Shown piece after piece: positions 5,884-36,556 of a stretch of 41,337 nucleotides of DNA. The position numbers were made by a program, and so were the translations under genes. Position 1 is the stretch's first letter; the number at the start of each line of letters is the position of its first letter. The stretch is from Terriglobia bacterium (GTDB lineage Bacteria; Acidobacteriota; Terriglobia; JAIQFV01), in assembly GCA_020072965.1 (NCBI GenBank), contig JAIQFY010000045.1, positions 1-41,337 of the forward strand, written 5' to 3'. The notes beneath the pieces were generated by a model. That model was not told the origin of the DNA. It ran no database searches and saw nothing but the letters and a program-made list of their open reading frames with translations.

Positions 5884-8760
5884 TTATTCCGGCATTGTTT
5901 TATTGGATCGCTTGATGCCCAGTTTCTTCATTTTCGACTGGAGGGTTGTTCTCTTTAGACCAAGAACCTCGGCGGCGCCGCCCTGCCCGGCGATGCGCCA
6001 GCCGGTCTTTTCCAGCACCGCCACCATATACGATTGCTCCATATCTTTGAGCTTCCCAGGAGCATCTTTCTCTGCAGATGCAGGCTTAGGCACGGGAACG
6101 TCCAGGGTTTTACCCCTGGTCAAGATCATGGCGTGTTCGATCAGATTCCTTAGCTCCCTGACGTTGCCCGGCCAGGAATAGGATTGCAGGGCCTGCATGG
6201 TCTTCTTCGGAATGCTTTCTATCTCTTTTCCCATCCTCTTCTGAAACTCCTTGACAAACGTCCGGATCAGGAGAGGAATATCTTCAGGACGCTGACGCAG
6301 CGGTGGAATCACAATGGGAAACACATTCAGCCGGTAGAAGAGGTCCCGCCTGAATTTGCCCTCCTTCACTTCTTGCTCAATGTCCCGGTTGGTGGCGGCA
6401 ATGATGCGAACATTGACATGCAGGGGCGTGGTCGAACCTAGCCGCTCGAAGGTGCCATCCTCAAGCACCCGAAGCAATTTGCTCTGCAGCTCGAGGGGAA
6501 GTTCGCCAATCTCATCGAGAAAGAGGGTTGAACCGTCAGCAATCTCAAAGCGGCCGACCATTCGCGTCAGTGCGCCCGTGTAAGCTCCCTTTTCCCTGCC
6601 AAAAAGTTCGCTTTCGATCAGCGTGGGCGGCAGAGAGGCACAGTTGACTGTCACCAGCGGCCGGCCTTTTCGGGAACTCAGGCCATGGAGGGCCCGGGCC
6701 AACAGTTCTTTTCCAGTTCCGGTTTCCCCCAGGAGGAGAACCGTCGAGTCGGTTTGGGCAACCTGCTCCGCCTGGGTCAGGACCTTCTTCATCACAGCGC
6801 TTTGCGCCACGATGTCCGTATGCTCAACCAGGAGTTTGATCTCCTCCTGAAGATAGACATTCTCTCTTTCGAGCCGCTGCTTGAGCGCTTCGATCTCGTT
6901 GAGGTGTTCTTTGAGCTTCTCCTCCATCTGCTTACGCTCGGTGATGTCCTGAGCGAATACCGATACACCGAACACACTATCACCGCGCCTGAGGCTGTTG
7001 ATATTCAGCCGCTGCACCCGGTTTCCCGCACACGTCGAGTATTCTGTTGTGAAGGAGCCCTCCTCCAGCGCCTGCCGATAGAACATATGCCATTGCTGAG
7101 CGTAGTCTGCAGGCAGGAGATCTTCAGGACGCATACCGGCCTTGATATCAATGCCATGGTTATGGAGGAAGTATTCAGAGAGACCGCGGTTAAAGGTGAG
7201 AAGACCAAAGTGGTCTGAATCGACCGACCAGATCATGTCGGAAGTACTGTTGACCAATGAAGCGAGCAGGGTCTGTGACTCACTCAGCTCCAACTCCATC
7301 TTTTTACGTTCGGTGATGTCTAGCGACAATCCCATCAAGCGCTCCGGATCTCCGTTCGATCTCAGAAGGCGCTGCCCGCGGGTCACAATCCATCGGATGC
7401 TTCCATCCTGGAGCACGATCCTGTAATCGGAAAGGAGGTTTTCTCCCGACTGGAGTGCGCCCTGCACCTCCTGGTGGACCCGGTCCCGATCCTCGGGATG
7501 GATCACCCTGAAGAAACTTTCATAGCAAATCTCTTCATCCGGGGCAAATTGAAACAGCTCCCGGCTCTTGGGGGAAACCCAGACCCTGCCGGTATCGACC
7601 TTCATGATCCACAGGCCGGCCTCCACGGCGTCTGTAGTCAGACTCAGACGCGCCTCGCTTTCACGCAAAGTCTGTTCGGCCTGCTTGCGGGCGAGCGCGT
7701 TGGCAAACACTTGCGCGATAAGCTTGAAGCCCCTCACGGCCGTCTCCGGCCAGCTTCTCTCTTCGCGCGTGACCGCGAATCCCAACAGGCCAAATACCGG
7801 CCCTTCTCCAACCGATAGCGGAACTAACAAGGTGGACTTGGTGTCGTACGCGCGGAAACTCTCCAGGTCGCGGCCGGCTTCTGGCGGGAGGTCGGTCAAT
7901 TTGGAAATAATGACCGTCTCCCCCTCCAGGACCTTCTGCGACGTCCATGGGAAGAAATGGTGTGCATTCATCCGCTCAGGGGGTAACGGGCTTCCCGAAG
8001 GAAGACGCCAATGTGTCAGCAGCAGCGCCCCGGGCTCTGCCTCACAGGCTTGCCAAAGTGTGGAGCGGTCAAGATTGAGGAGTTCGCAAACGCGACGCTG
8101 GGCGTCTTCAATCTCGCTGTCTATCCGATCGGCGGGCAAGTTGACAAAGCGCGTAGAGATTTCGGACAGCAACGTCTTAAACTGGAGCTCTTCCTCCGAT
8201 CTCAACCTGTCCTCCCTGCGCTCCAGGGCATTAACAAGTATGTCACCCAGCAGGTGCAGCCGGGGGATATACTCTTCCGGCCAGGTCTGATGCCGGCGTG
8301 TTTGCTGTATCAAAATTATTCTCGGGATCCGGCCACTGGAGAACAGAGGGATGGTCAAAGTGGATTTGATTCCCATAGCCGCAAAGGATTGCCTGTCCTT
8401 CAGGGCTTCCTCAGGAAAATCCTCCAACCGGTGGATGTTGAGATGCTTCCCCTGCATCAATCTTTCGTAACTCCATGGGAACAGCTCGGCAAGGTTCGTC
8501 TCCCCCGATACCTGTTCGATGCCTTCGCCATACTCGATGTGAGTGACTCTGGCAAATGCCTTGTCTGCCCGGATTTCCAGCAGAGCACACCGATCGACCT
8601 GGAAGAACTCCATGATCTGCCTTAAGGCATTATTGATCTCGCTGTCGAGCTTTTCGAAGGGGGTGGCCATGAACCGTGCAGAAAGGTCCGACAGCATCTC
8701 TTCAAAACGGAGGCGCCTTTTCAGGGTCTTTTCATTGGTTTCCCGCTGCACCGTCTGCAT
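5884..8760 (-). CDS. Sigma-54-dependent transcriptional activator, GAF-GAF-PAS-PAS-AAA-Fis (EBP1)
   Basis: About 958 aa. Order of domains: two GAF-like sensor domains (about 15-355), a PAS domain with SLDITERK at its end (375-490), a second PAS ending in AQDITERKQ (500-620), a coiled-coil linker, then the AAA+ sigma-54 interaction domain with Walker A GETGTGKE, the sigma-54 contact loop GAYTGA (Tyr for the usual Phe), Walker B TLFLDEIGELP, and a C-terminal Fis-type helix-turn-helix (EVLGLKRTTLQSKMKKLGI). There is no receiver domain, so sensing is through GAF/PAS. The frame runs to a TTG at 8805 with no ribosome site; ATG 8760 has GAGG close upstream. Likely target is the promoter at 5744-5761. 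It resembles EBP2 at 31070, most strongly in the first PAS domain. Confidence 0.92.
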   Translation of the reverse strand: MQTVQRETNEKTLKRRLRFEEMLSDLSARFMATPFEKLDSEINNALRQIMEFFQVDRCALLEIRADKAFARVTHIEYGEGIEQVSGETNLAELFPWSYERLMQGKHLNIHRLEDFPEEALKDRQSFAAMGIKSTLTIPLFSSGRIPRIILIQQTRRHQTWPEEYIPRLHLLGDILVNALERREDRLRSEEELQFKTLLSEISTRFVNLPADRIDSEIEDAQRRVCELLNLDRSTLWQACEAEPGALLLTHWRLPSGSPLPPERMNAHHFFPWTSQKVLEGETVIISKLTDLPPEAGRDLESFRAYDTKSTLLVPLSVGEGPVFGLLGFAVTREERSWPETAVRGFKLIAQVFANALARKQAEQTLRESEARLSLTTDAVEAGLWIMKVDTGRVWVSPKSRELFQFAPDEEICYESFFRVIHPEDRDRVHQEVQGALQSGENLLSDYRIVLQDGSIRWIVTRGQRLLRSNGDPERLMGLSLDITERKKMELELSESQTLLASLVNSTSDMIWSVDSDHFGLLTFNRGLSEYFLHNHGIDIKAGMRPEDLLPADYAQQWHMFYRQALEEGSFTTEYSTCAGNRVQRLNINSLRRGDSVFGVSVFAQDITERKQMEEKLKEHLNEIEALKQRLERENVYLQEEIKLLVEHTDIVAQSAVMKKVLTQAEQVAQTDSTVLLLGETGTGKELLARALHGLSSRKGRPLVTVNCASLPPTLIESELFGREKGAYTGALTRMVGRFEIADGSTLFLDEIGELPLELQSKLLRVLEDGTFERLGSTTPLHVNVRIIAATNRDIEQEVKEGKFRRDLFYRLNVFPIVIPPLRQRPEDIPLLIRTFVKEFQKRMGKEIESIPKKTMQALQSYSWPGNVRELRNLIEHAMILTRGKTLDVPVPKPASAEKDAPGKLKDMEQSYMVAVLEKTGWRIAGQGGAAEVLGLKRTTLQSKMKKLGIKRSNKTMPE

Positions 8761-9082
8761 TCGACCTCGCAATGCGATTATTTCATTGCTCAATATATGT
8801 CCCAATCATGGTGCTACACAGCCTGGTGAATCCGCCCCTTGCGGTCGTACCCGTGTTGAAGCCTCACGACGTGTCTACAGAATACCCACCTTCTCCAGCT
8901 CCGTTACCCCCAGCTTGATGAGCGCCAGCAGAGCCGCGATAAGATCAGCCCACAGCGCCGTCATCCGGCGTGTGACCTGCACATGGGTGAGCGTTTGCAG
9001 AGCCTTATCCCCTTTCGTGGGTCACCGTTCCGCTGGCGTACGGCCACAGTGGGTTAAAGACCCTCGCCGCAAGCGGCCGCCC

Positions 9083-9757: not shown

Positions 9758-11284
9758 CTAGTGGGGTCCTCCTCCCGAGGCAGCCTTCATTTGCTCCATC
9801 ACCTGGTCGAGGTTGTAGGACACCGGCCTCTGACGCGGCGGGAACTCTTTGAAGGAGGTGATCAGCTGTTGCACGGTGCCCACGCCCACCTGCACAAAGA
9901 ACAAACGATCGATGAACCAGTCCCAGTAGGAATTCGAGTTCTCGTCGGCGCGCTCGAAGGGGTCGCGCCGCAGGTTGAAGAGCTTCGGCATGCGCAGGTG
10001 GACGAAGGGCTCGCCCCAGCACGCCATCTGTTTTGCCCGTTGTTCCTCGAAGACGATCTTCCAGTCGTCGGTCCGCAGGGCGACCATCCGGCCGTCGTCG
10101 TTGACATAGGCGAAATAGTTCCTGGGGCTCTCTTTGACCTGACCGGTGAGGTAAGGCAGCATGTTTATGCCATCGATATGGACTTTGAACGTCTTGTCCC
10201 CGGCTTTGTGGCCTTTCAGCAATTTCTGGTTGATGTCCGGGTCGCCGGCGGCCGCCAGCAGCGTCGGCAGCCAATCCTGATGGCAGACGATCCCGTTCAG
10301 GACGGTGCCGGCCTTGAACTTCCCCGGCCAGCGGACGAACGCCGGGACCCGCCACGCGCCTTCCCAGTTGGTGTTCTTCTCGCTCCGGAAGGGGGAGATT
10401 CCGGCATCGGGCCACGAGTTGTAGTGGGGGCCGTTGTCGGTGGAATACATGACAAGCGTGTTGTCGGCAATGCCCAGCTCGTCGAGCTTGGCGAGCATCC
10501 TGCCGATGTTCTCATCGTGGGCGACCATGACGTCGTTATAAAAGCCCTGTCCGCTCTTGCCCTCGTGCTTCTTAGCGCAGTGGGTTCGGAAGTGCATGGC
10601 CGAAGTGTTGTACCAAACAAAGAAGGGTTTGCCTGCCTTGTGAGTGCGGTCGATGAAGTCGAGGGCCTTTTCGGTGACCTCGTCGTCGATCGTCTCCATC
10701 CGTTTTCTCGTCAGCGGGCCGGTGTCCTCGATCTTCTGCCAGCCGACGCGGCCCCACCGTGGCTGGTCTGTCGGATCGTCCTTGTCCGTCGCCCAGCAAT
10801 GCAGGACGCCGCGGGGACCCGCCCACATGCGGAACCGGGGATCCTTCGGGTAGTCGGGGTGTTCAGGTTCCTCCTCGGCATTCAGGTGGTAGAGGTTGCC
10901 GAAGAATTCATCGAACCCGTGGACGGTGGGGAGGAACTTGTTCAGGTCTCCCACGTGGTTCTTGCCGAATTGGCCCGTGGCATACCCCAGGGGCTTGAGG
11001 AGTTCAGCGATCGTCGGGTCTTCCGGCTGCAGCCCGAGATCCATTCCCGGCCCCTCCACCTTGGTCAGGCCGGTGCGGACCGGATTCTGTCCGGTGATAA
11101 ACGCAGCCCGGCCAGCGGTGCAACTCTGCTGTCCATAGTAATCGGTGAAGGCAATGCCTTCGTTGGCGATGCGGTCGATGTTCGGTGTCCGGTAGCCCAT
11201 CTGGCCACGACTGTTGTAGCTGATATTCCACCAGCCGATATCATCGCCCCACAAGATGAGTATGTTCGGTTTTTTCTCGGCCAT
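9758..11284 (-). CDS. Sulfatase (alkaline phosphatase superfamily), 508 aa
   Basis: A type I sulfatase. Asp pair DD at 14-15 near the N-terminus binds metal. The formylglycine site is C55-T-A-G-R in QQSCTAGRAAFITGQ, a Cys-type signature with Ala instead of Pro at the third place. FGKNHVGD near 110 supplies the conserved Lys, and STDNGPHYN the second metal/sulfate site. It hydrolyses sulfate esters after conversion of the Cys to formylglycine. There is no signal peptide, so it should be cytoplasmic. GGAGG lies 6 bases before ATG 11284. It is distinct from the three larger sulfatases upstream (no C-terminal extra domain) and is the last sulfatase in a run 16234 to 9758. Substrate is not predictable here. 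Confidence 0.93.
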   Translation of the reverse strand: MAEKKPNILILWGDDIGWWNISYNSRGQMGYRTPNIDRIANEGIAFTDYYGQQSCTAGRAAFITGQNPVRTGLTKVEGPGMDLGLQPEDPTIAELLKPLGYATGQFGKNHVGDLNKFLPTVHGFDEFFGNLYHLNAEEEPEHPDYPKDPRFRMWAGPRGVLHCWATDKDDPTDQPRWGRVGWQKIEDTGPLTRKRMETIDDEVTEKALDFIDRTHKAGKPFFVWYNTSAMHFRTHCAKKHEGKSGQGFYNDVMVAHDENIGRMLAKLDELGIADNTLVMYSTDNGPHYNSWPDAGISPFRSEKNTNWEGAWRVPAFVRWPGKFKAGTVLNGIVCHQDWLPTLLAAAGDPDINQKLLKGHKAGDKTFKVHIDGINMLPYLTGQVKESPRNYFAYVNDDGRMVALRTDDWKIVFEEQRAKQMACWGEPFVHLRMPKLFNLRRDPFERADENSNSYWDWFIDRLFFVQVGVGTVQQLITSFKEFPPRQRPVSYNLDQVMEQMKAASGGGPH

Positions 11285-11435: not shown

Positions 11436-13811
11436 CTATTGAAGCGCCATTGCGATATGCAATCGCTCTGCGCCGGTGAGGATGTGATCCTTGTCCAACG
11501 CCTCCTTGTCTACGTCAATCTCAACCCAGTTGACCTCGCCGCTGAAGGCGTTGCCTCGTGGCCCATAGTCCGGCGAGACCGGCGAACCCATTTCCATCCC
11601 CACGTCAGCTGTTTCGTCGGCGGAATATGCGAATGGTTCGGTGATCTCGACCCGACCCGCGCCGACCTTTTGCCCGTCAATGAAGAGCGACACGGTTCCG
11701 CCCTTGGCCAGGCCGCCGCCGTCGTAGGCGAATTCCATCCGCACCTGGTGCGTGCCGGGTGGAATCGCCTGCTCACCCTCGACAAAGAAGCGCTGCAGCC
11801 CAAGGAAGTTATAGCAGTACTTGGGTTTTCCCTCCTTGGCATAGAGACTGAAGCCGCCAGTGATGCCGCCCACTGCGAGGATAACGCCTTCCGCGCCTGC
11901 CTCTGGCACCACCACCTCGGCGGTGATCGCAAGCGACTTGTTCAAGATGTTGACGAGCGAACCCCCCGACAAGCGCTTCATCCCGCGAAAGAGCAGTTGC
12001 CGGTTGCCGCGCACCAGTTGCGGACGCCCGGAGAGATCTGCATTGAAGCGCTCGGCCAGCCGATCATCGAGTGGCAGGACGTTGTGCTTAACCGCTTCGA
12101 TCAGCCACAGCCGCTGCAGCTCGTGCAGCTTCTCAGGCATCTCTTTGGCAAGGTCGTGGGCTTGCGCCCAATCGGTGTTCGTGTCGTAGAGTTCCCACAC
12201 ATCGTCATCAAAGGGAACGGTCTTGATGGCACCCGTCATCCAAGGCGTGCGGTGTTTCGTGACCGCGGTCCACCCTTTGTGATAAATCCCGCGATTGCCG
12301 ATCATCTCAAAGTACTGGGTGGTATGCCGCTCTTCAGCTTTGGCGTCCTCGAAGGAGTACATCATGCTGACGCCCTCGTACGGCTTTTGCTGGATGCCAT
12401 TGACAAAGGTCGGTTCAGGCAGGCCCGTCGCTTCCAGGATGGTCGGCGCAACGTCGATCACATGATGGAATTGCGAGCGCACCTCGCCCTTTGCCTTAAT
12501 GCCGTTGGGCCAGTGGACGATGGTGCCGTTGCGCGTGCCACCCCAGTGCGAGGCGACCTGCTTGGTCCACTGGTACGGGGTGTCCATGGCATGCGCCCAA
12601 CCCACCGCATAATGGTTGTACGCCTCCGGCGTGCCGAACTTGTCAATGTTCTTTGTCAAGAACTCGGCAGTTTCCAGATGCCCAAACGCATTAAGGGGAA
12701 CCATCTCGTTAAACGTGCCCTGGAGCGTGCCTTCGGCCGAGGCGCCGTTGTCGCCGATGATGTAGTAGATGAGCGTGTCGTCGAGGACTTCCAAATCTTG
12801 CAGGGCGTCAATCAGCAGACCGACGTGATGATCGGTGTGTTCGAGGAAGCCGGCATAGATTTCCATCTGACGCGCCAGAACCGGCTTCATCTGCGGGTCA
12901 ACATCATTCCACGCCGGAATCTCGGAATGGCGTTGGGTCAACTCCGCGTCGGGTGGGATGACGCCCAGCTGCTTCTGCCGGGCGAAGGTCTCTTGGCGCA
13001 ATTTATCCCAGCCCTGATCGAACTTGCCCTTGTACTTGTCCGCCCATTCTTTGGGGACGTGATGCGGTGCATGAGTCGCTCCGGGAGCGAAGTACATGAA
13101 GAACGGCTTGTCAGGCATGAGCGATTTCTGCTGCCGCACCCATTGGATGGCCTTATTAGTCAGATCGGTGGTGAAGTGGTAGCCTTCCTCCGGGGTCTTG
13201 GGTGGCTCGACAGGGATAGTGCCTTCGTAGATTGCCGGGTAATACTGGTTGGTCTCGCCGCCGATGAACCCGTAGAAATACTCAAATCCGCCCCCCGGGC
13301 AGGGCCAATGATCGAAGGGGCCCATCGGGCTGGTTTCCCAAGAAGGTACCTCGTGGCACTTGCCAAACTGTGCCGTAGAGTAGCCGTTCAACTTGAGCGT
13401 CTCGGCGAGCGGCGCACAGCTTTTCGGGCGAATCGAGCTGGAACCCGGGGCTGATGTTGCCATTTCAGTAACGCCAGCCATGCCGACCGAGTGGTGGTTG
13501 CGCCCGGTCAGCAGCGCCTGCCGCGTCGGCGAGCACAGGGCCGTGGTGTGAAAGCGGTTGTAGCGCAGCCCGCCCGCGGCAAGCCGTTCTGCCGTCGGCG
13601 TCCGGCAGGGACCGCCGAACGCCGACGATGCGCCAAAACCCACATCGTCGATCAGGACGATCAACACGTTGGGAGCGCCTTTGGGCGGCCGGAGCGGCTC
13701 GATGGGTGGAAACTTCGTGTCCGGGTCCTTGGCATCGTAGGTCGTCAAACCGACGTGCGTCGGATCCGGGATGGGGAGAATCTGCCGGTGGATTTTGTCC
13801 TGATTGCTCAT
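11436..13811 (-). CDS. Large arylsulfatase-like sulfatase, 791 aa (copy A)
   Basis: Catalytic part: metal ligands DD at 55-56 in VLIDDVGFG, formylglycine site C93-S-P-T-R in ALCSPTRQALLTGRNHH, conserved Lys in TAQFGKCHEVP, and YIIGDNGASAEGT for the second metal side. The last 200 or so residues form an added beta-rich domain (SLFIDGQKVGAG, ADVGMEMGSPVSPDYG) like a concanavalin/LamG-type sandwich. ATG 13811 is chosen over 13817 because GGAGG sits 6 bases before it and abuts the other; this also aligns the start with copies at 16234 and 24648, putting the Cys at 93 in all three. No signal peptide. It is very close to the copy at 22273-24648, more so than to its neighbour at 13874. Confidence 0.93.
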   Translation of the reverse strand: MSNQDKIHRQILPIPDPTHVGLTTYDAKDPDTKFPPIEPLRPPKGAPNVLIVLIDDVGFGASSAFGGPCRTPTAERLAAGGLRYNRFHTTALCSPTRQALLTGRNHHSVGMAGVTEMATSAPGSSSIRPKSCAPLAETLKLNGYSTAQFGKCHEVPSWETSPMGPFDHWPCPGGGFEYFYGFIGGETNQYYPAIYEGTIPVEPPKTPEEGYHFTTDLTNKAIQWVRQQKSLMPDKPFFMYFAPGATHAPHHVPKEWADKYKGKFDQGWDKLRQETFARQKQLGVIPPDAELTQRHSEIPAWNDVDPQMKPVLARQMEIYAGFLEHTDHHVGLLIDALQDLEVLDDTLIYYIIGDNGASAEGTLQGTFNEMVPLNAFGHLETAEFLTKNIDKFGTPEAYNHYAVGWAHAMDTPYQWTKQVASHWGGTRNGTIVHWPNGIKAKGEVRSQFHHVIDVAPTILEATGLPEPTFVNGIQQKPYEGVSMMYSFEDAKAEERHTTQYFEMIGNRGIYHKGWTAVTKHRTPWMTGAIKTVPFDDDVWELYDTNTDWAQAHDLAKEMPEKLHELQRLWLIEAVKHNVLPLDDRLAERFNADLSGRPQLVRGNRQLLFRGMKRLSGGSLVNILNKSLAITAEVVVPEAGAEGVILAVGGITGGFSLYAKEGKPKYCYNFLGLQRFFVEGEQAIPPGTHQVRMEFAYDGGGLAKGGTVSLFIDGQKVGAGRVEITEPFAYSADETADVGMEMGSPVSPDYGPRGNAFSGEVNWVEIDVDKEALDKDHILTGAERLHIAMALQ

Positions 13812-13873
13812 TTTCATCCTCCAGACTTGGTGTGCAGGACTGGTGATATCTGCGATACTAGTCCTGCCAGTTG

Positions 13874-16234
13874 CTACTGCAGTGTCATCGCCAGGTGCAG
13901 GCGTTCTTCAGGGGAGATCAGGTGGTCGTGATCGTCCTTGCCGAGGTCAATTTGCACCCAGTTGACCTTGCCGGTGAAGACACTGGTCTTGCGGTCGTAA
14001 TCGGGGCTGACCGGCGTGCCGCTCTCGCGACCGACGTCGGTCGTCTCGTCGGCGGAAAAGATCATAGGGACGGTCTGTTCGATGCGCCCTTCGCCCACTT
14101 TCCCGCCGTCATAATAAAGCATGACGTTGCCGCCCTTAGCCAAGCCGCCACCGTCGTAGGCAAACTCCATCCGCACTTGGTGCGTGCCTGTCGGGATCGG
14201 CTGGCTTGCCGCGGTCGTACAGACCCGGAGTCCGAGAAAGTTGTAGGCGAACTTCGCCTTTCCTCCTTTGGCATAGAGGCTCAAGCCGCCGAAGGCGCCA
14301 CCTTGGGCGAGGATCACCCCCTCGGCGCCCTTCTCCGGAACTTCCACCTCGGCCGTTATCGAGAAGGACTTGTTCTTCATCACCACGACGCAGTTCTCGC
14401 TCAGCCGGCCCATCCCACTGAAGAGGAGTTGCGAGTTTCCTTTGATCAGGGTGGGGCGGCCGGCCAGATCCGCGTTGAAGCGTTCGGGTCTGCGGTCGTC
14501 GAGCGGCAGGACGTTGTATTTGACCGCCTCGATCAGCCACAGACGCTGCAGCTCGTGGAGCTTCTCCGGCATCTCCTTTGCGAGGTTGCGCGCCTGCGTC
14601 CAGTCCGTCGACCCTTCGTACAGTTCCCAGACGTCATCGTCGAAAGGAAGCAACGGTTCGACGATAAACGGCGTGGAATGCCGGGTCACGGCGCTCCAGC
14701 CCTGGTGATAGATGCCGCGATTGCAGAACATCTCGAAGTATTGCGTCTCGTGACGCTCCGGCGCCTTGGCGTCGTCGAAGCTGTAGAGCATGCTTGTTCC
14801 CTCAAGGGGGCTCTGTTGGACGCTGTTGACGATGGTCGGCTCGGGGGTGCCGGCCGCTTCCAGGATCGTCGGCGCCACGTCAATGACGTGGAAGAACTGG
14901 CTTCGAATCTCGCCCTTGGCTTTGATCCCCTTGGGCCAGTGGACGATGGTACCGTTGCGCGTGCCCCCCCAGTGCGAGGCGATCTGCTTGGTCCACTGGT
15001 ACGGGGTGTCCATCGCATGCGCCCAGCCGACGGCGTAGTGGTTGTAGGCTTCGGGCCCGCCGAACTGGCTGATCCGCTGCATCAGGAACTCCGGCGTCTC
15101 GATCTCCAGCCCGTTGAGGTGGATCCACTCGCAGAATGTGCCCTGCAGGCCGCCCTCAGCCGACGCGCCGTTGTCGCCGATGATCACGTAGACCAGCGTG
15201 TCGTCGAGCACCTCCAGGTCCTTTAGGGCCTCGATCAGCCGGCCCACCTGGTGGTCCGTGTGTTCCATGAACCCGGCGTAAACCTCCATTTCGCGCGCCA
15301 GGACGGACTTCAGGCCGGGGTCCATCTCATCCCAGGCCGGGATCTCCTTCGGCCGCTTTGTCAGTTCAGCGTTCGGGGGGACAACCCCCAGTCTCTTCTG
15401 CCGATCAAAGGTCTCCTCCCGCAGCTGGTCCCAACCCTGGTCGAACTTCCCTATGTACTTGTCCGCCCATTCTTTCGGCACGTGGTGCGGCGCATGGGTT
15501 GCTCCCGGCGCAAAGTAGATGAAGAAGGGTTTGTCAGACATCAGGGCCTTCTGCTGGCGGACCCAGGCGATGGCCTTGTCGGTCATGTCCTCGGTGAAGT
15601 GATAGCCTTCCTCGGCCGTCTTGGGTGGATCGATGGGAACCGTGCCCTCGTAAAGGGCAGGATCATACTGATTGGTCTCGCCGCCAATGAAGCCGTAGAA
15701 GTACTCGAACCCGCCGCCACCCGTGGGCCAGGCATCGAACGGCCCCATGGGGCTGGCCTGCCACACCGGGACCTCGTGGCATTTGCCGAACTGCGCCGTC
15801 GAGTAGCCGTTCAGTTTCAGGGTCAGCGCCAGCGGGGCCTTGTTCTTAGGCAAGACCGAGGTATATCCCGGGGCAGAGGTGGCCATCTCGGTGATGCAGC
15901 CCATGCCGGCCGAGTGGTGGTTGCGTCCCGTCAGGAGCGCCTGCCGTGTCGGCGAGCAGAGGGCGGTCGTGTGGAAGCGGGTGCAGCGCAGGCCGTTCGC
16001 GGCGAGTTTCTCGAAGTTGGGCGTCTGGCACGGCCCGCCGAAGGCGGAGGAGGAGCCGAAGCCGGCGTCGTCGATGAGGACGATCAGCACGTTGGGCGCG
16101 CCCGCCGGCGGCCGAATGTCCCGAATCGGTGGAAATTTCGTTTCCGGGTCTTTCGCATCGTAGGTCGTCAAACCCACGTGTGCGACATCAGTAATGGGTA
16201 AAATTTCGCGCTTGAGATTTGTTGTGCCATTCAC
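13874..16234 (-). CDS. Large arylsulfatase-like sulfatase, 786 aa (copy B)
   Basis: Same architecture as copies A and C: DD at 55-56, C93-S-P-T-R formylglycine site in ALCSPTRQALLTGRNHH, Lys in TAQFGKCHEVP, VIIGDNGASAEGG, and the C-terminal beta-rich domain. GTG 16234 is chosen: GGAGG lies 7 bases upstream and the product then aligns with its paralogues. The longer frame to ATG 16288 adds 18 residues without family match. It lies 62 bases upstream of copy A on the same strand, so the two are likely co-transcribed. It is the most diverged of the three large copies, with many changes in the region between 530 and 740. Cytoplasmic by lack of signal peptide; substrate unknown. Confidence 0.93.
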   Translation of the reverse strand: MNGTTNLKREILPITDVAHVGLTTYDAKDPETKFPPIRDIRPPAGAPNVLIVLIDDAGFGSSSAFGGPCQTPNFEKLAANGLRCTRFHTTALCSPTRQALLTGRNHHSAGMGCITEMATSAPGYTSVLPKNKAPLALTLKLNGYSTAQFGKCHEVPVWQASPMGPFDAWPTGGGGFEYFYGFIGGETNQYDPALYEGTVPIDPPKTAEEGYHFTEDMTDKAIAWVRQQKALMSDKPFFIYFAPGATHAPHHVPKEWADKYIGKFDQGWDQLREETFDRQKRLGVVPPNAELTKRPKEIPAWDEMDPGLKSVLAREMEVYAGFMEHTDHQVGRLIEALKDLEVLDDTLVYVIIGDNGASAEGGLQGTFCEWIHLNGLEIETPEFLMQRISQFGGPEAYNHYAVGWAHAMDTPYQWTKQIASHWGGTRNGTIVHWPKGIKAKGEIRSQFFHVIDVAPTILEAAGTPEPTIVNSVQQSPLEGTSMLYSFDDAKAPERHETQYFEMFCNRGIYHQGWSAVTRHSTPFIVEPLLPFDDDVWELYEGSTDWTQARNLAKEMPEKLHELQRLWLIEAVKYNVLPLDDRRPERFNADLAGRPTLIKGNSQLLFSGMGRLSENCVVVMKNKSFSITAEVEVPEKGAEGVILAQGGAFGGLSLYAKGGKAKFAYNFLGLRVCTTAASQPIPTGTHQVRMEFAYDGGGLAKGGNVMLYYDGGKVGEGRIEQTVPMIFSADETTDVGRESGTPVSPDYDRKTSVFTGKVNWVQIDLGKDDHDHLISPEERLHLAMTLQ

Positions 16235-16395
16235 GATGGTTCCTCCTTCAGCCAAAGGTGTTGTTTGTTTTCCCTCGACCGTGAGCACTTGTCACTCTGT
16301 GTTTATCCCCCGATATTCGTCACTTTATCTTTTCGATATCCGGCCTTTCATGGCTTCGCAGCTTTATGTCATTAAAGCGGAGGCACTCCTTGGCA

Positions 16396-17838
16396 TCAGA
16401 AGCCTCCCCCGAGAGCCAGGTGAAGGTTGATGCGATTGGCGAGCAGTTGGTATTCGACCTGTGTTGTCGCCGCCTTCGCTCCCAGCTCTGCTGCCTGCAG
16501 CTGCAACACGGGACCCAAGTCAACCTGGCCAACCTCGTGCTTTGTTCTTTCGAGCGCAAGCGCGCGACTAATATTGTGCAGTGCATTGCCCAGTTCCTGT
16601 TGCTGTTCCCGCAAATAACGTTCATTGCCAAGCGCAGCTTCTACCTCATCGAAGGCTTCGAGGATCGTCTCGCCATAAACCGCAAGTGCGGCTCTCTGGT
16701 TTTCTTTGGCCACATTCACCTGAGCGCGCAGGAAACCACCGGTATAAAGGGGCGCGGCCAGATTGGCGCCGACAGTCCATACCCATGGACGGAAGTTCAG
16801 CTTCTGGTAGATCTCGTTGGTCATGTACCCCGCCCCGCCGGTTAAGCTCAGGGAGGGAAGCCGCGCTGCCTGCGCGGACTGGACCAGATGGAAAGCCGCA
16901 TCCACGCCATGTTCAGCCGCGAGAATATCCGGACGGCGTTCCAGCAGTTGCAGCGGGAGGCCGGCTGGAACGGGCGGGGGTAAGCCGGCGAGGACAGGCG
17001 CCACGTTGAGCTCCGCCGAGGGATAACGTCCAAGGAGAACCTCCAGCCCGCGTACAACCTGCTGCAGCGAGCTGCGGACCTCCGCTATCTGGCTCCGCGC
17101 GGTTTCCAGCTCGGCGCGCGCAATCGCTACCTGCTGGTCCTGTGCACCGCCGACCTCACGCTTCGCCTCGACCAACCCCAACTCCTGTTGTTTGATCTCG
17201 ACGTTTTGCTCGGCATATTGCAGGAGCATTTTCGTGTAGGTGGCCATAAACCAGACCTTTGCCGTCACGGCCGCCAGTGATTGCTGGGCGTACAGAATGT
17301 TGGCCTTTGTGGCGGCCAGTTCCTGCTGTGCGGCGGCTGTCTGCGAGCGGATGCGACCCCACACGTCCAACTCCCACGACACGCCTGCCAGCAAGCTGGA
17401 GGCATTGAACCTTCCTTTGGCCCTGCCCAACACGTCGGTCTGCCCGAAGCGCCCCAGGTAGGTGGCCGACGCCGTCGCCCCAATGATCGGCATCATCTGG
17501 GAGTGAGCTTGCGTGATCATGTTTTCGGCCACGGCAATGCGTGTCGCCGCCGCCATCAGATCAAGATTGTTCTTGATTGCTTCGGCGACAATCGCTTCCA
17601 GCTGGGGGTCCGCAAAAGTCTTTACCCATTCGTCCCCTACGGGCCCTGCAGGAACGTCTTTATCGCTCCATGTACCCGGGATGGTTGTGGCAGGCGGCAT
17701 GGCTTCTCTTACAAGTTGCGGCGTGGGAGGGGGACGTTTCACGGCGCACCCGCTCAGGAGCAAGGCCACCGCCAGCCCGACTGCCGAGCAACGAGCCATT
17801 CCGACCCGACCTTTTTGCAATCTTGAATTTTCTTTCAC
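16396..17838 (-). CDS. NodT-type outer-membrane efflux lipoprotein
   Basis: About 480 aa. An N-terminal lipoprotein signal with lipobox LLSGC is followed by two TolC-like OEP repeats rich in Ala/Gln helices. Marks of the NodT/RND outer-membrane factor family are WSWELDVWGR-like SWELDVWGRIRS near 155, LLERRPDILAAEHG near 300, and AAPLYTGGFLRAQV near 370. It would form the trimeric outer-membrane channel for the HlyD-type adaptor encoded just upstream. GTG 17838 has GGAAGG 8 bases upstream and lies 23 bases after the adaptor stop; ATG 17799 is an alternative that keeps the lipobox. The frame further upstream overlaps the adaptor gene and is not needed. Confidence 0.9.
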   Translation of the reverse strand: MKENSRLQKGRVGMARCSAVGLAVALLLSGCAVKRPPPTPQLVREAMPPATTIPGTWSDKDVPAGPVGDEWVKTFADPQLEAIVAEAIKNNLDLMAAATRIAVAENMITQAHSQMMPIIGATASATYLGRFGQTDVLGRAKGRFNASSLLAGVSWELDVWGRIRSQTAAAQQELAATKANILYAQQSLAAVTAKVWFMATYTKMLLQYAEQNVEIKQQELGLVEAKREVGGAQDQQVAIARAELETARSQIAEVRSSLQQVVRGLEVLLGRYPSAELNVAPVLAGLPPPVPAGLPLQLLERRPDILAAEHGVDAAFHLVQSAQAARLPSLSLTGGAGYMTNEIYQKLNFRPWVWTVGANLAAPLYTGGFLRAQVNVAKENQRAALAVYGETILEAFDEVEAALGNERYLREQQQELGNALHNISRALALERTKHEVGQVDLGPVLQLQAAELGAKAATTQVEYQLLANRINLHLALGGGF

Positions 17839-17861
17839 GTTTTCAACCTTCCAGTCAGGCT

Positions 17862-19085
17862 TCAGTAGCCGGCGAATACGTAATTGGTCCACGTGTACCA
17901 GCGCATGATCACTTGGCGGATGATGAAGAGGTTCCGCCACGAATCGCCACGAATCGCGACAAAGCCGCTTGCACCAACCGGCAACAACGATCCCCGCAGA
18001 TCGTCGTGCAAGGTCAGCCTCACCAGCATTCGATCTGCAGGTTGGACCATGCGATTGGCTTCCAGCTGGCCACCTGGATCGAGCTGGCCTGACTTCGTGC
18101 CCAACTCAATGCTCGCCACCTTGGCTTTGAGAATCTTGCCGGGCAACGCGGAGAACGCGACCTCCGCCTCCGCTCCCGGTTTGAAGGTGTTGAGATAGTT
18201 CTGCATGACGGTGGCCGAAAGCAGAACTCGATTTCTTGCGTACACAAACACCATGACGGGAGTGAGTGACGCCATGGCTCCCGGCTGCAACTGCAATTGC
18301 GTAACGTAGCCGTCCTCTGGTGCATAAACCGTTGTCTGCGCAAGATTCCATCGCGCGGATTCCACCTGTGATTTGTACTGCGCCAGGGTAGCCGGCCTCA
18401 CTGTTCGTGCCGCCCTCAGCGCTGCCTCGGCTTGCGCCAACTGTGCTTTGGCGGCGGCGAGTTGTTGCTGTTGCGCTGCCATCTGCTGCTGTTGGGCCGC
18501 GACCTGCTCGGTCAGGCTGCTGACGTCGGTGGCGTACCGTTCAACTTCAAACTGGCTTCCGGCGTTCTTGCTGGCCAGCGTCGTATATTGCTTAAGGCGA
18601 GTCGTGGCCAAGGCCAAGTGGGCCCGGGTGGCATCGGTTGCTGACTGGGTGGCACGAATGGCCGCTTCCAGGGCCTGCACATTTGCCGTGGCTGCGTTCA
18701 CGCCGTTGCTGGCCTGCGTAATCGCGTTTTGCGTCTGAACGTCGGCCTGTGCCAGCCCGGCCTCCGCAACGTGGACGCCATCGAGGTACGGCTGCGGATC
18801 CATCTTGAACAGCGCGTCCCCTTTCCTGACCGGGGTGTTGTTTTGCACGGGTACTTCCGTGACTCGTCCAGGAACGCGCGCGACCACGGGCGTGGTGTAT
18901 TCGGAGACGACCAAGGCAACTGAAAAGGGCTGGGTGAAGTTCATGCCAAATAGAATGACGAGCAGACCGAAGAAACCGACCATGCCGGCAAGAATCTGCG
19001 CCGGCAAATTGAAGGGAAGGAGTCGGAACCTGATGAAGATCAGGTAGAGACCAACGCAGTAAACGAGGGCGAGGAAGGCAATCAT
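17862..19085 (-). CDS. HlyD-family membrane fusion protein (YibH/YiaV-like)
   Basis: 407 aa. One N-terminal membrane segment (IAFLALVYCVGLYLIFI and a second hydrophobic stretch AGMVGFFGLLVILFGMNF) leads to the biotinyl/lipoyl-like half ARVPGRVTEVPVQNNTPVRKGDALFKMDP. A long coiled coil (about 120-250, with repeated AAQQQQMAAQQQQLAAAKAQ-type heptads) follows, then the second half TTVYAPEDGYVTQLQLQPGA. It should bridge inner membrane and outer-membrane channel. ATG 19085 overlaps the stop of the preceding small gene as ATGA and has GGAGG 6 bases upstream. The frame continues far upstream, but that part is antisense-like filler. In E. coli, relatives sit beside DUF3302 genes, as here. Confidence 0.9.
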   Translation of the reverse strand: MIAFLALVYCVGLYLIFIRFRLLPFNLPAQILAGMVGFFGLLVILFGMNFTQPFSVALVVSEYTTPVVARVPGRVTEVPVQNNTPVRKGDALFKMDPQPYLDGVHVAEAGLAQADVQTQNAITQASNGVNAATANVQALEAAIRATQSATDATRAHLALATTRLKQYTTLASKNAGSQFEVERYATDVSSLTEQVAAQQQQMAAQQQQLAAAKAQLAQAEAALRAARTVRPATLAQYKSQVESARWNLAQTTVYAPEDGYVTQLQLQPGAMASLTPVMVFVYARNRVLLSATVMQNYLNTFKPGAEAEVAFSALPGKILKAKVASIELGTKSGQLDPGGQLEANRMVQPADRMLVRLTLHDDLRGSLLPVGASGFVAIRGDSWRNLFIIRQVIMRWYTWTNYVFAGY

Positions 19086-19294
19086 GAGAGACCTCCAAGC
19101 CGCTGGTCCAACTCCCGGTAAGTGTTCTCGATAACTGTTAACCGCTCGGAAAGGCTTGCGAGGTCCTTTTTGAGCGACGCATAGTCGGCCAGGCCGCTGA
19201 CGCCAGCGAGCTTTTGCCGGTCCTTCTGGCGGTTCTTCTGGTCCAAGTAGCGCAGGAACAGCACATAACCAATGACTAGGATTGCTACCATCAT
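19082..19294 (-). CDS. Small membrane protein with PspB-like layout
   Basis: 70 aa: one N-terminal transmembrane helix (MVAILVIGYVLFLRYL), a basic stretch DQKNRQKDRQK, then a coiled coil ending LSERLTVIENTYRELDQRL. This order and size resemble phage-shock protein B, which has a membrane helix followed by an RMRERIQALE-type coil. Sequence similarity is limited, so PspB-like describes layout only. Its ATG overlaps the stop of the DUF3302 gene (ATGA), and its own stop overlaps the ATG of the HlyD gene (ATGA), so all three are translationally coupled and probably made in fixed ratio. Confidence 0.8.
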   Translation of the reverse strand: MMVAILVIGYVLFLRYLDQKNRQKDRQKLAGVSGLADYASLKKDLASLSERLTVIENTYRELDQRLGGLS

Positions 19295-19662
19295 GAGCGT
19301 TGTCCTCCCGTCTTGCGAGCGAGAGATTTGGCAAGCAGTTGGCGCATGCCGGTTTCGAGGTTGGCCATGCGCTCAGCGAGAGGGTTGATCGATGCCGACA
19401 ATTCCGCGGCCTCGGCTTCGCTGATCGCAATCTGCGCGCCTGCTCCCGTGCGAGGGCGCAGGAATGCAGAAATCAAAGCCAGCATCCAGATGGGCGGCAA
19501 CAATATGCCGATCCATCCCGCGACGTTGATGGCTTCTGCCCACGGGCTATGCCGCTTCTTTGCCAGATTTCCCGGTAACCATGCCAGCAATAGAAGAAGT
19601 CCTACCACAAGGGCGATGATGACTAGCAGGATAAGAAGAGAAAAAATGTCCAAGAAGCTCAT
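19291..19662 (-). CDS. DUF3302 family inner-membrane protein (YibI/YiaW-like)
   Basis: 123 aa. The first 75 residues match the DUF3302 family by pattern: FLDIFSLLILLVIIAL, a second hydrophobic run, AKKRHSPWAEAINVAGWIG, then PPIWMLALISAFLRP. E. coli YibI and YiaW have the corresponding AKKRxHPxADAIxVAGW segment and sit beside HlyD-type genes. Here there is an added C-terminal coiled region (SEAEAAELSASINPLAERMANLETGMRQLL) absent from the short E. coli forms. ATG 19662 has GGAGG 8 bases upstream. First gene of the four-gene cassette ending at 16396. Role unknown; an accessory subunit of the adaptor is inferred from gene order. Confidence 0.85.
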   Translation of the reverse strand: MSFLDIFSLLILLVIIALVVGLLLLLAWLPGNLAKKRHSPWAEAINVAGWIGILLPPIWMLALISAFLRPRTGAGAQIAISEAEAAELSASINPLAERMANLETGMRQLLAKSLARKTGGQRS

Positions 19663-20159
19663 ACCCGTCCTCCCTCACTTCAACTTCTCGATCTCGGGCG
19701 GCCTTCAAGCGTGGTCGTAATAAGGTTGCACGGGACCGTCGAAGTGGAGGAAAATGAAGCAACCCCTGCCGGAAATGACAGGTCTGCACGTTCGTTCCTC
19801 CACGTGTTCATCCTTTTCATGGTTTCGTTTCTAAAGTCATTGAGGCTTACTTTTCAGAGTGCCAGAGGTCGGCGGAGTTAGACTTTCGAGGGCCGAGTGG
19901 AAAACAATTAGGATTTTGTTCCTTTCCCACGGCATCCTCTTCTCAACACTCTTTTTTTCCCCGCTGGTCATCCAATGAACTGCTTGAACTGGTCGCGCAA
20001 GACGTCCCATCAACGGCCCCGGCGGCTGCCACTCGCGGAGGATTTGAAAATTAAGTGACAACCATGATCCGGTTAAAGGCGGCTTCCTCGATCTGGGGGA
20101 TCCCAGCTACTTGCCCGCAGGGTATGCGAGCTTTCCAAGACTGCCCGGAGTCCTAAATC
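19663..20159. other. 497-base gap without a recognisable gene
   Basis: Upstream of the DUF3302 cassette. One minus-strand frame (19837-20061, 74 codons) is open, but it has no ribosome site and resembles no family known to me. A GGAAAACAATTAGGATTTTGTT tract near 19895 resembles one at 11330. No convincing promoter box was seen. Confidence 0.5.
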
Positions 20160-20850: not shown

Positions 20851-22182
20851 TCAGGATGAGATAGCCGTCGTGAATTCGATCTTGCCGTGACATCTCTTAT
20901 ACTTGATGGGAGTTCCATTCTTATCGGTCGCTCCGCACGGGCAGGGGTCGTTCCGGCCGGCCTTCTTAAACCGCTCTTGAAGAGTTGTTCTCTCAACGGG
21001 TATTGCCCTCATCACTCCGTCTGCGGTCTTGCCCTGACGGATCAGTTCCGCCATGACCCGCATGGATTTGTCCGCGTGTTTGAAGAAGGCCTTGTACCCG
21101 GCGCAGAGGTAATTCAGCCCCGGTTCTCCGTCGGGTGTCTCCAGAAAACGGTTCTTGGGACATTCTCCATTGCAGATGTGCAAGACTTCGCACTCCCGAC
21201 AATACCGGGGGAGCGAATCCTTCTTATCCTGCCCGAACTTTCGCTGCTTCTCCGAAGCCACGAGATCGATCATCGGAGTCTCCAGGATGTTCCCAAGGTA
21301 ATAGTTAGGCTCGACAAAGTGGTCGCACGAGTAGAGGTCCCCGTTATGCTCAAGGGCGAGGCCCAGGCCGCAAGTGGGTCCGAAGATACAGACCGTTCCC
21401 GCCATCCCCAGCCATCCGGCAAGGGCTCCGTCGAAGTTCAGAACAAAGGTGTCTCCGACATCCTTCTTCACCCACTCATCAAAGATCTCAGTCAGAAAAC
21501 GCCCCCATTGATCCGGCCGAACGGACCGGTCTGTGACCTTGTTCCCTTCCTGATACCCGCTCTCGTTGTCCCGCTCCACAATGGGAATGAATTGAATGTA
21601 ATGCGCACCCAGGTCGTCCCTGAAAAACCGGTAAACCTCCAACGGATGATCGGCGTTTTTCGAATTGACGGTGCATAAGATGTTGAACTCAACCTTGTGT
21701 TTCTGGAGTAGGCGAGCGGCCTGCACGACAAGCTCGAAAGTCCCGTGGCCTCCCCTGTCCTTGCGGTAGGTGTCGTGAAGTTCTTTGGGGCCATCCAGGC
21801 TCAGGCCGATAAGAAAGTTGTTTTCATGAAAGAATCGGCACCACTCGTCGTTCAGGAGGATGCCGTTGGTTTGGAAGGTGTTCTCGATGCAAGTGCCCGG
21901 CCTCGCGTAGAGTTTCTGGACTTCTACGGAGCGGCGGAAAAAATCGAGACCCATGAGGGTCGGCTCGCCGCCCTGCCACGCGACGGTCACTTGAGGTACC
22001 TGGTGGGCTTCGAAGAGCTGCTTGATATAAGCCTCATGGACCTCATCGGACATGTGGAAATTGCTTCCCGGATAGAGCTTCTCCTTCTTCAGGAAGAAGC
22101 AGTAGTCACAATGAAGATTGCAGGCCGAACCCGTTGGCTTGGCCATGATGTGAAAAGCCCTGAGAGTATTCGTTGAGGACAT
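20851..22182 (-). CDS. Anaerobic sulfatase-maturating enzyme (radical SAM/SPASM) with C-terminal SEC-C motif
   Basis: 443 aa. Radical SAM motif C21-x3-C25-x2-C28 (ACNLHCDYC). The SAM-contacting AWQGGEPTLMG is near 77. The SPASM part keeps the cysteine set for two more iron-sulfur clusters: VCIFGPTCGLG, YSCDHFV (with the Asp base), YCRECEVLHICNGEC and YLC. It converts the active-site Cys or Ser of sulfatases to formylglycine without oxygen, and is the only intact maturase here for four Cys-type sulfatases. The tail adds a zinc-binding SEC-C motif (NDPCPCG ... KYKRCHG). ATG 22182 has GGGGAG 7 bases upstream. It follows sulfatase copy C by 90 bases, separated by a 32-base palindrome. Confidence 0.94.
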   Translation of the reverse strand: MSSTNTLRAFHIMAKPTGSACNLHCDYCFFLKKEKLYPGSNFHMSDEVHEAYIKQLFEAHQVPQVTVAWQGGEPTLMGLDFFRRSVEVQKLYARPGTCIENTFQTNGILLNDEWCRFFHENNFLIGLSLDGPKELHDTYRKDRGGHGTFELVVQAARLLQKHKVEFNILCTVNSKNADHPLEVYRFFRDDLGAHYIQFIPIVERDNESGYQEGNKVTDRSVRPDQWGRFLTEIFDEWVKKDVGDTFVLNFDGALAGWLGMAGTVCIFGPTCGLGLALEHNGDLYSCDHFVEPNYYLGNILETPMIDLVASEKQRKFGQDKKDSLPRYCRECEVLHICNGECPKNRFLETPDGEPGLNYLCAGYKAFFKHADKSMRVMAELIRQGKTADGVMRAIPVERTTLQERFKKAGRNDPCPCGATDKNGTPIKYKRCHGKIEFTTAISS

Positions 22183-22231
22183 CGGTTCTCCCCTTATTTT
22201 TAAATGCATTCCTATTACAGCCTTCACAAGC

Positions 22232-22272: not shown

Positions 22273-24648
22273 CTACTGCAGCGCCATCGCCACGCGGAAT
22301 CGCTCCCCGCCGGTGAGGAGGTGATCCTGGTCCAGCGCCTCCTTGTCCACGTCAATCTCCACCCAGTTGACCTCGCCGTTGAACGCATTGCCGCGCGGCC
22401 CATAGTCCGGCGAGACCGGCGAACCCGCTTCCATGCCCACGTCGCAGGTCTCATCGATTGAAAAGCCGAACGGCTCGGTCATCTCGACCCGACCTTCACC
22501 GATCTTTTGACCATCGATAAAGAGCGACACCGTGCCGCCCTTGGCCAGCCCTCCGCCGTCGTAGCCGAATTCCATGCGCACTTGATGCTTGCCGGGTGGA
22601 ATCGCCCGAGTGCCTTCGACGTAGTAATGGGTGAGCCCGAAAAAGTTGTAGCAGTATTTGGGCTTGCCATCCTTGGCATAGAGACTGAACCCGCCGGTGA
22701 GGCCTCCAGCCGCGAAGATGACCCCTTGCGCGCCCGCTTCGGGCACTACCACTTCGGCCGTGATGGCGTGGGATTTGTTCAAGAGGTTGACGCACGAGCT
22801 GGCGGACAAGCGCGTCATCCCGCTAAACAGCAGTTGCCGGTTACCGCGCACCAATTGCGGGCGCCCGGAGATGTCGGGGTTACCGCGTTCCACCAAGCGA
22901 TCATCGAGAGGCAACACGTTGTGCTTGGTCGCCTCAATCAGCCACAGACGTTGGAGTTGATGCAGCTTGTCGGGCATCTCTTTGGCGAGATCGTGCGATT
23001 GGGTCCAATCGGTGTTCGTGTCGTACAGCTCCCACACGTCGTCGTCAAACGGAGGCAGTTTGACCAAGCCTAATATCCACGGGGTGCGGTGCTTGGTGAC
23101 CGCGGTCCAGCCCTTGTGATAGATGCCGCGGTTGCCGACCATCTCAAAGTACTGGGTCTCGTGCCGTTCGGGTGCCTTGGCATCGTCGAACGAGTACGTC
23201 ATGCTGACGCCCTCGTAAGGCTTTTGCTGGATGCCATTGACAAAGGCCGGCTGGGGCAAACCCGCTGCTTCCAGGATCGTCGGGGCGACATCAATCACAT
23301 GATGGAATTGCGACCGCACCTCGCCCTTGGTCTTGATGCCGTTGGGCCAGTAGACGATCGTGCCATTGCGCGTGCCGCCCCAGTGCGAGGCGACCTGCTT
23401 GGTCCACTGGTACGGAGTATCCATGGCATGGGCCCAACCCACCGCATAGTGGTTGTAGGCCTCGGGTCCGCCGAACTTGTCGATGTTATTTTTCATGAAC
23501 TCTTCGGTTTCCAGGTGTCCGAACCCACCGAGGGTTAACATCTCGTTAAATGTTCCCTGGAGCGTGCCCTCGGCCGAGGCCCCGTTGTCGCCGATGATGT
23601 AGTAGATCAGCGTGTTGTCGAGGACTCCCAAATCCTCCAGCGTGTCAATCAGAAGGCCGACGTGATGATCGGTGTGTTCGAGGAATCCGGCATAGATCTC
23701 CATTTGTCTCGCCAGGATGGGTTTCATGCCGTCCGAGATATCGTCCCACGCCGGAATCTCGGGATGGCGCCGGGTCAATTTCGCCTCGGGCGGGATCACG
23801 CCCAGCTGCTTCTGCCGGGTGAATGTCTCTTCACGCAGCTTGTCCCAGCCCTGATCGAAGCGGCCCTTGTACTTGTCCGACCACTCTTTGGGGACATGGT
23901 GTGGCGCGTGGGTCGCCCCCGGCGCAAAGTACATGAAGAACGGTTTGTCGGGCATGAGCGATTTCTGCTGGCGCACCCACTGGATGGCTTTGGCCGTGAG
24001 GTCGGTGGTGAAGTGGTAGCCCTCTTCCGGGGTCTTTTCCGGCTCCATCGGGGTAGTGCCTTCGTAGATGGCGGGGTAGTACTGGTTGGTCTCGGCACAG
24101 ACAAAACCGTAGAAATATTCGAAGCCGCCTCCCCCGGTGGGCCAATGCTCGAACGGACCCATCGAGCTGGTCTCCCACACCGGCACCTCGTGGCACTTGC
24201 CGAACTGGGCCGTCGAATATCCGTTCAGCTTGAGCGTCTCGGCCAGCGGGGCGCAGGATTTGGGGCGGATCGAGCAGTTGCCGGGTGCTGAGGTTGCCAT
24301 TTCGGTAATGCCGCCCATCCCAACCGTATGGTGATTGCGCCCGGTGAGCAGCGCTTGGCGGGTTGGCGAGCAAAGCGCCGTGGTGTGAAAGCGGTTGTAG
24401 CGCAGCCCGTTCGCGGCGAGGCGTTCAGCCGTCGGTGTCCGGCAGGGACCGCCAAACGCGGACGAAGCGCCAAAGCCCACATCGTCGATCAGGACGATCA
24501 GCACGTTGGGCGCGCCCTTGGGCGGGCGCAGCGGCTCGATGGGCGGATATTTAGTATCCGGGTCCTTGGCGTCGTAGGTGGTCAAACCGACGTGCGTCGG
24601 ATCCGGGATGGGAAGAATTGATCTTTGAATCTTGTCTTGTGTGCTCAT
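22273..24648 (-). CDS. Large arylsulfatase-like sulfatase, 791 aa (copy C)
   Basis: Same length and layout as copy A: DD at 55-56, C93-S-P-T-R formylglycine site, Lys in TAQFGKCHEVP, YIIGDNGASAEGT, and the C-terminal beta-rich domain with SLFIDGQKIGEG and CDVGMEAGSPVSPDYG. Protein identity with copy A is high by eye in almost every block, so A and C are recent duplicates. ATG 24648 has AGAAGGG about 9 bases upstream. It heads a pair with the maturase gene downstream. No signal peptide; cytoplasmic. A decayed second maturase tail lies just upstream, which suggests the unit once read maturase-sulfatase-maturase or arose by unequal recombination. Confidence 0.93.
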   Translation of the reverse strand: MSTQDKIQRSILPIPDPTHVGLTTYDAKDPDTKYPPIEPLRPPKGAPNVLIVLIDDVGFGASSAFGGPCRTPTAERLAANGLRYNRFHTTALCSPTRQALLTGRNHHTVGMGGITEMATSAPGNCSIRPKSCAPLAETLKLNGYSTAQFGKCHEVPVWETSSMGPFEHWPTGGGGFEYFYGFVCAETNQYYPAIYEGTTPMEPEKTPEEGYHFTTDLTAKAIQWVRQQKSLMPDKPFFMYFAPGATHAPHHVPKEWSDKYKGRFDQGWDKLREETFTRQKQLGVIPPEAKLTRRHPEIPAWDDISDGMKPILARQMEIYAGFLEHTDHHVGLLIDTLEDLGVLDNTLIYYIIGDNGASAEGTLQGTFNEMLTLGGFGHLETEEFMKNNIDKFGGPEAYNHYAVGWAHAMDTPYQWTKQVASHWGGTRNGTIVYWPNGIKTKGEVRSQFHHVIDVAPTILEAAGLPQPAFVNGIQQKPYEGVSMTYSFDDAKAPERHETQYFEMVGNRGIYHKGWTAVTKHRTPWILGLVKLPPFDDDVWELYDTNTDWTQSHDLAKEMPDKLHQLQRLWLIEATKHNVLPLDDRLVERGNPDISGRPQLVRGNRQLLFSGMTRLSASSCVNLLNKSHAITAEVVVPEAGAQGVIFAAGGLTGGFSLYAKDGKPKYCYNFFGLTHYYVEGTRAIPPGKHQVRMEFGYDGGGLAKGGTVSLFIDGQKIGEGRVEMTEPFGFSIDETCDVGMEAGSPVSPDYGPRGNAFNGEVNWVEIDVDKEALDQDHLLTGGERFRVAMALQ

Positions 24649-30965: not shown

Positions 30966-31069
30966 ATGTGTTAACGTCCACGTGGTTGCTTCAGCGTGTA
31001 ATTGGATATTGGTTGGATGAAACGGTATCCTTAATCATTCCCTGTTGCCAAGTGTCGAGGGTTCCACCA

Positions 31070-33955
<2,886 letters not shown>

Positions 33956-36530: not shown

Positions 36531-36556
36531 ATTGAGCCATGACCAAGGAGAAACTC

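Follow-up and report, generated by a model that had tools for sequence, protein, structure and literature searches.

A widespread DUF3302, HlyD adaptor and outer-membrane channel cassette with no linked pump and a clade-specific fourth gene

Gene content and layout of the cassette

The stretch of DNA analyzed here (41,337 nucleotides; the window) carries a real, widespread and conserved adaptor-channel unit that is pump-less, joined in the window by a fourth gene that is specific to one clade. The three core genes, encoding a DUF3302 membrane protein, an HlyD-type adaptor and an outer-membrane channel, keep this engine-less arrangement in several phyla, and we therefore consider the cassette a real unit as opposed to a broken pump. 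The genes of the window cassette, in order of transcription, are as follows:

19291..19662, minus strand: DUF3302 membrane protein, 123 aa (PF11742, E 1.1e-14)
19082..19294, minus strand: 70-aa protein with an N-terminal transmembrane (TM) helix and a coil-like polar tail (no Pfam or NCBIfam match)
17862..19085, minus strand: HlyD/EmrA-type periplasmic adaptor, 407 aa (HlyD_D23, EmrA/MdtN families)
16396..17799, minus strand: NodT-family outer-membrane channel with a lipoprotein signal (TIGR01845, 3.7e-85; PF02321, 2.6e-45)

An initial annotation of this DNA had proposed these four genes in this order, with the first three coupled by ATGA overlaps and no MFS, RND or ABC pump among them, and each of these points was borne out. 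The small gene overlaps both of its neighbours by ATGA, exactly at 19291-19294 (with DUF3302) and at 19082-19085 (with the adaptor). The adaptor gene starts at ATG 19085 and its stop codon ends at 17862, about 63 nt before the start of the channel gene, hence these two genes do not overlap. The NodT gene ends at 16396, and ATG 17799 is its best start because it yields a lipoprotein signal (MARCSAVGLAVALLLSGC). All four genes are intact, and no MFS, RND or ABC gene is adjacent to them.

Conservation and phylogeny

An adaptor profile was built from four sequences, that of the window and three from loci of the same phylum reached through DUF3302, and was searched against one genome per species, with the best 80 loci kept. 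The resulting set of 82 loci (one duplicate removed) was picked by the adaptor alone apart from three loci found via DUF3302, and shares over these 82 loci describe the nearest relatives (the best 80) and not the whole family. DUF3302 is found just upstream of the adaptor in 81 of the 82 loci, and in 57 the genes overlap by a single base, so the pairing is not due to chance and the claim that the genes belong together stands. A channel gene sits just downstream of the adaptor in 47/82 loci, a few of the loci ending before the channel position is visible. Adaptor loci span the Acidobacteriota, Pseudomonadota, Verrucomicrobiota, Bacteroidota, Myxococcota and Planctomycetota; in the Planctomycetota loci the adaptor is present and no channel was detected. 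Given these counts, the spread over several phyla and the near absence of pump families from the flanks (below), we regard DUF3302-adaptor-channel as a conserved, uncharacterised, pump-less unit.

In the window the adaptor follows DUF3302 in the same direction, as expected of a DUF3302-HlyD locus, with the small gene in between. Among the 82 loci this gene is found between DUF3302 and the adaptor only in the window, L012 and L015, and among 396 genomes sampled from the phylum its profile gave strong matches only in the window genome and the genome of L012. An IQ-TREE phylogeny of 54 adaptors joins the window, L015 and L012 in one clade (support 100/100), and since these are the sole loci carrying the small gene it probably arose once. 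The four-gene order proposed earlier thus recurs, in three loci, but was found only within one acidobacterial clade, and it is the three-gene order of DUF3302, HlyD and outer-membrane channel that forms the conserved unit. The clade groups beside a large channel-bearing set, a placement that is unsure (84/64), and a channel-less branch (100/100) contains YiaV and another sequence of E. coli along with vibrios and rhizobia. The window genome encodes a single DUF3302, the two further genomes sampled from the order yielded none, and a search for plasmid relatives of the window DUF3302 returned none.

The component proteins

The window DUF3302 scores 54.8 bits against PF11742 (cut-off 32), placing it within the domain family. 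Its predicted model (pLDDT 83) has a long TM helix, a broken second TM segment and a 41-residue helix, and no solved relative is convincing by sequence or by fold (best Z 4.9). Most DUF3302 proteins keep near-invariant H27, H39, P60 and W65, a signature derived in the present alignment and not taken from any published definition; outside the small-gene clade H27 is present in 56/58 and H39 in 58/58 sequences. The window protein instead carries A27, S39, M60 and S65, and H27, C49 and P60 are lost in all three members of its clade. Position 49 is Cys in 38/39 channel-bearing loci, Gly in 18/19 channel-less loci and Gly in 3/3 of the window clade. It is possible, from this pattern of residues, that C49 together with H27 and H39 marks a ligand or metal site.

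The 70-aa protein, with relatives in L015 (70%) and L012 (29%), had been described as PspB-like. It does have in common with PspB a short length, one N-terminal TM helix and a polar, coil-like tail, but it differs in lacking a match to the PspB family, or to any other Pfam or NCBIfam family, at E 0.1. We therefore reject PspB homology and keep the likeness as one of layout only.

The adaptor matches HlyD_D23 (3.3e-13) and has the EmrA/MdtN families (~1e-28) as its nearest. Its predicted model (pLDDT 90) contains two TM helices (2-19 and 27-51), a hairpin (98-172/178-249) of 75 residues, lipoyl and barrel parts in an EmrA-like body, and a C-terminal helix (386-400) that is specific to its family, with R390 conserved in 50/51 and R395 in 51/51 sequences. 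The nearest solved folds are EmrA structures, 4tko (Z 17.7, rmsd 9.2 over 303 residues) followed by 8zar (Z 17.2, rmsd 11.1 over 311), and include EmrA of the EmrAB-TolC pump. A pattern resembling the TolC-contacting tip is kept in part, with Q/R at 166, L at 170 and, in about half of the adaptors, S/T at 177. Against the model for type I secretion HlyD-type adaptors, TIGR01843, the protein reaches 51.7 bits where the cut-off is 208.65, and does not belong with that family. The NodT protein (TIGR01845) supplies the TolC-superfamily channel that a tripartite efflux pump requires.

The missing pump and candidate partners

A Pfam scan of the same-strand genes directly flanking the cassette covered 109 proteins (58 downstream and 51 upstream). 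Among the 25 commonest families listed per tally, MFS_1 occurs in one of the 109 proteins (Xenophilus, L057) and no RND or ABC pump family is present. RND genes lie near the cassette in L027, where there are also adaptor-like and channel-like genes additional to the cassette's own, and the multi-TM genes near other loci vary (SulP, Na:sulfate symporter, Na/Ca exchanger, AI-2E). With flanking pump families this rare and the nearby multi-TM genes this variable, no pump is constant across the family. The Xenophilus MFS gene (L057:5830-7260), which looks EmrB-like by eye and whose end lies about 280 nt upstream of DUF3302, is the only directly linked MFS pump seen and a natural candidate for the missing partner.

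The window genome encodes three strong EmrB-type pumps, one adjoining an EmrA-like adaptor and the other two, at C87:21019-22482 and C105:13015-14475, with no adaptor or channel within ~5 kb. These two pumps make a partner in trans possible, and the earlier suggestion that the four genes form a complete envelope-spanning device is for this reason unproven. A partner of the AaeB/FUSC type is disfavoured, as the window genome has no match to PF13515 (FUSC).

Genomic neighbourhood

The cassette of the window is surrounded by sulfatase genes on the same strand:

9758-11284, minus strand: sulfatase (PF00884)
11436-13817, minus strand: sulfatase (PF00884)
13874-16288, minus strand: sulfatase (PF00884)
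20851-22227, minus strand: anaerobic sulfatase maturase (TIGR03942, 2.4e-151)
22273-24648, minus strand: fourth sulfatase (PF00884)

Three of them follow directly downstream of the channel gene, with successive gaps of 107, 56 and 151 bp, and no minus-strand terminator-like site was seen in the gap following the channel gene; these three are possibly co-transcribed with the cassette. Four of the eight clear sulfatases of the 5.9-Mb genome lie within ~10 kb of the cassette. A second pair is found on contig C49, near DUF1254-looking and AI-2E-like genes (by eye). The cassettes of L015 and L010 likewise have a sulfatase next to them, and the stretches of L011 and L012 that were read showed no sulfatase; the association is one of position and is specific to the lineage. 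By eye, the three large sulfatases have no obvious N-terminal signal peptide, which would make phenols or sulfate released in the cytosol a plausible cargo, though this is speculation.

Among the other loci, PPK2 lies within ~8 kb of the cassette in 21/82 (including L017, L021, L025 and L054). At a base rate of ~2.4 PPK2 genes per ~5 Mb genome (30 of these genomes), ~0.8% of 17-kb stretches would carry one, so the excess is roughly 30-fold, uncorrected for relatedness between loci. Recurring neighbours, some of these counts being inflated by relatedness, are SulP (14 loci), DUF2950 (10), Na/Ca exchanger (9), AI-2E (9), DUF3300 (8), an Orn/Lys/Arg decarboxylase cluster (8), a Na:sulfate-type symporter (5) and AspT (4). 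The neighbour clustering held many spurious antisense ORFs, and the families named here were confirmed with Pfam (one representative each) or by flank scans. Together these neighbours suggest a setting of stress, ion or organic-acid homeostasis. DUF3300 followed by DUF2950 is present in the window itself (35280-37543, plus strand), and the pair recurs beside the DUF3302-adaptor cassette in ~8-10 of the 82 loci.

On either side of the region lies a large sigma-54 activator with GAF and PAS domains (5884-8805, minus strand; 30968-33955, plus strand). Sigma-54 control of the cassette, which these two genes suggest, was considered and rejected: 30 promoter-like matches were found in the window where 20.8 are expected, a number reached in 6/100 shuffles and so not clearly in excess of chance, and the sole nearby match upstream of DUF3302 (20045-20060) is weak, with two mismatches. 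Elsewhere in the window, a gene at 27906-29753 (minus strand) encodes a single protein with a Phenol_MetA_deg barrel, Ig/PKD domains and an OmpA domain, and a 1095-aa open frame at 37590-40877 (plus strand) has no Pfam match.

Proposed mechanism and alternatives

The reading that we tentatively favour, at a little below an even chance, is that the cassette encodes a dedicated exit duct that has no pump of its own and is fed by an inner-membrane transporter encoded elsewhere. The adaptor would assemble in the manner of EmrA, forming a tube in the periplasm that reaches the NodT channel and so links inner and outer membrane. Synthesis of DUF3302, together with that of the small TM protein in the window clade, would be in step with that of the adaptor, and these proteins would most likely form or brace a base in the inner membrane, surrounding the two TM helices of the adaptor and its conserved C-terminal helix. 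Substrates would most likely be handed over by the separate transporter, for which the EmrB-type pumps lacking an adjacent adaptor are the candidates in the window genome, and the unit may serve as a shared outlet or relief valve under stress for small metabolites, probably anionic or aromatic.

The EmrA-nearest fold of the adaptor, the partial TolC-tip pattern and the adaptor-less EmrB-type pumps count in favour of an exit duct fed in trans, as do the stress and ion neighbours and a drug phenotype of E. coli yibH. In a high-throughput screen of transporter knockouts, the strain lacking yibH was one of those that the drug inhibited most, alongside mdtN and acrB (PMC9405208, Table 3). The caption of that table names ornidazole, and the text assigns its betT, tyrP and mdtN to azithromycin, so azithromycin is probably the drug concerned. 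This phenotype gives weak direct support to a role in efflux or permeability, coming as it does from a single screen with a conflict between caption and text. Counting against the trans-fed duct, a required pump might be expected to be linked to the cassette in more than one locus. In addition, the His, Pro and Trp residues that are near-invariant in most DUF3302 proteins exceed what a plain brace should need and favour an active role for DUF3302; the window copy is without them.

One alternative is a pump-free conduit. DUF3302 and the adaptor TM helices, with the small coil protein where present, would then make up a new kind of gated inner-membrane passage feeding the channel, in a self-contained trans-envelope route found across Gram-negative phyla. 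There is no part of the family in which a pump is constant, and the partner that is constant, DUF3302, keeps the conserved residues in most members, but these are lost in the window clade, DUF3302 is modelled as a simple TM hairpin followed by a helical tail in which no transporter fold can be recognised, and the cassette encodes no energy source; we consider this conduit doubtful. That the transporters recurring near the cassette are unrelated carriers of ions and anions (SulP, Na:sulfate symporter, Na/Ca exchanger, AspT), and not one pump, would suit a drain from the periplasm to the outside, in which the tube collects substrates that separate transporters deliver to the periplasm and DUF3302 merely anchors it. 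Many of these neighbours are importers or exchangers, they vary from locus to locus and no energy input is apparent, making such a drain unlikely.

It is also conceivable that the adaptor and channel tether the membranes while DUF3302 and the small coil protein signal envelope stress. The partners are indeed small proteins of the TM-plus-coil type in a stress-type neighbourhood rich in PPK2, but a dedicated TolC-superfamily channel in more than half of the loci is difficult to account for if nothing is transported, no PspB match was obtained for the small protein and the yibH knockout was drug sensitive in the one screen, so that we find a structural or sensory link quite unlikely. Most improbable of all is a degenerate efflux operon whose pump was lost, now decaying or free-riding in a sulfatase island. 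The single DUF3302 of the genome, the failure to find one in the two further genomes sampled from its order and the partly lost signature of the window copy could be read in this way, but the four window genes are undamaged and both the pump-less order and the coupled translation are kept across phyla, an order that already contradicts a decayed pump and led us to reject one.

Comparison with known systems

DUF3302 is scarcely present in the literature we searched, the mention examined being in a mutation table only, and no description of a cluster combining these genes was found there. The nearest relatives known by name are the E. coli pairs YiaW-YiaV and YibI-YibH, to which the initial annotation had already pointed, and in which a DUF3302 family member likewise sits beside a two-TM HlyD adaptor with no known pump. 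Unlike the window cassette, the E. coli pairs have no small coil gene and no linked channel, YiaV belongs to the separate channel-less branch, and the His/Pro/Trp signature missing from the window copy is retained by DUF3302 in channel-less loci. Adaptors paired with channels are regarded as pump components, and a pump-less unit in many phyla with its own small membrane partner either hides a common partner in trans or has a different way across two membranes. Since E. coli carries such DUF3302-HlyD pairs, the question is directly testable there.

AaeXAB, which exports aromatic acids, consists of a small membrane protein (AaeX), an HlyD adaptor and a FUSC protein. The window cassette resembles it in having a small membrane protein adjoin the adaptor, but DUF3302 takes the place of the AaeX family, the genome has no FUSC protein and a dedicated channel is present. 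Type I secretion systems require an ABC exporter linked to the adaptor, and no ABC gene is found beside the window cassette. With EmrAB-TolC the cassette shares the closest adaptor fold (EmrA, Z ~17) and a TolC-superfamily channel; in contrast, it has no EmrB beside it, it has DUF3302 as an extra partner, and its adaptor carries a conserved C-terminal helix in addition to two TM helices. Because the cognate inner-membrane pump, a defining part, is absent from the cluster, we do not file the cassette as a tripartite efflux pump, and by analogy it would work most like the duct of such a system.
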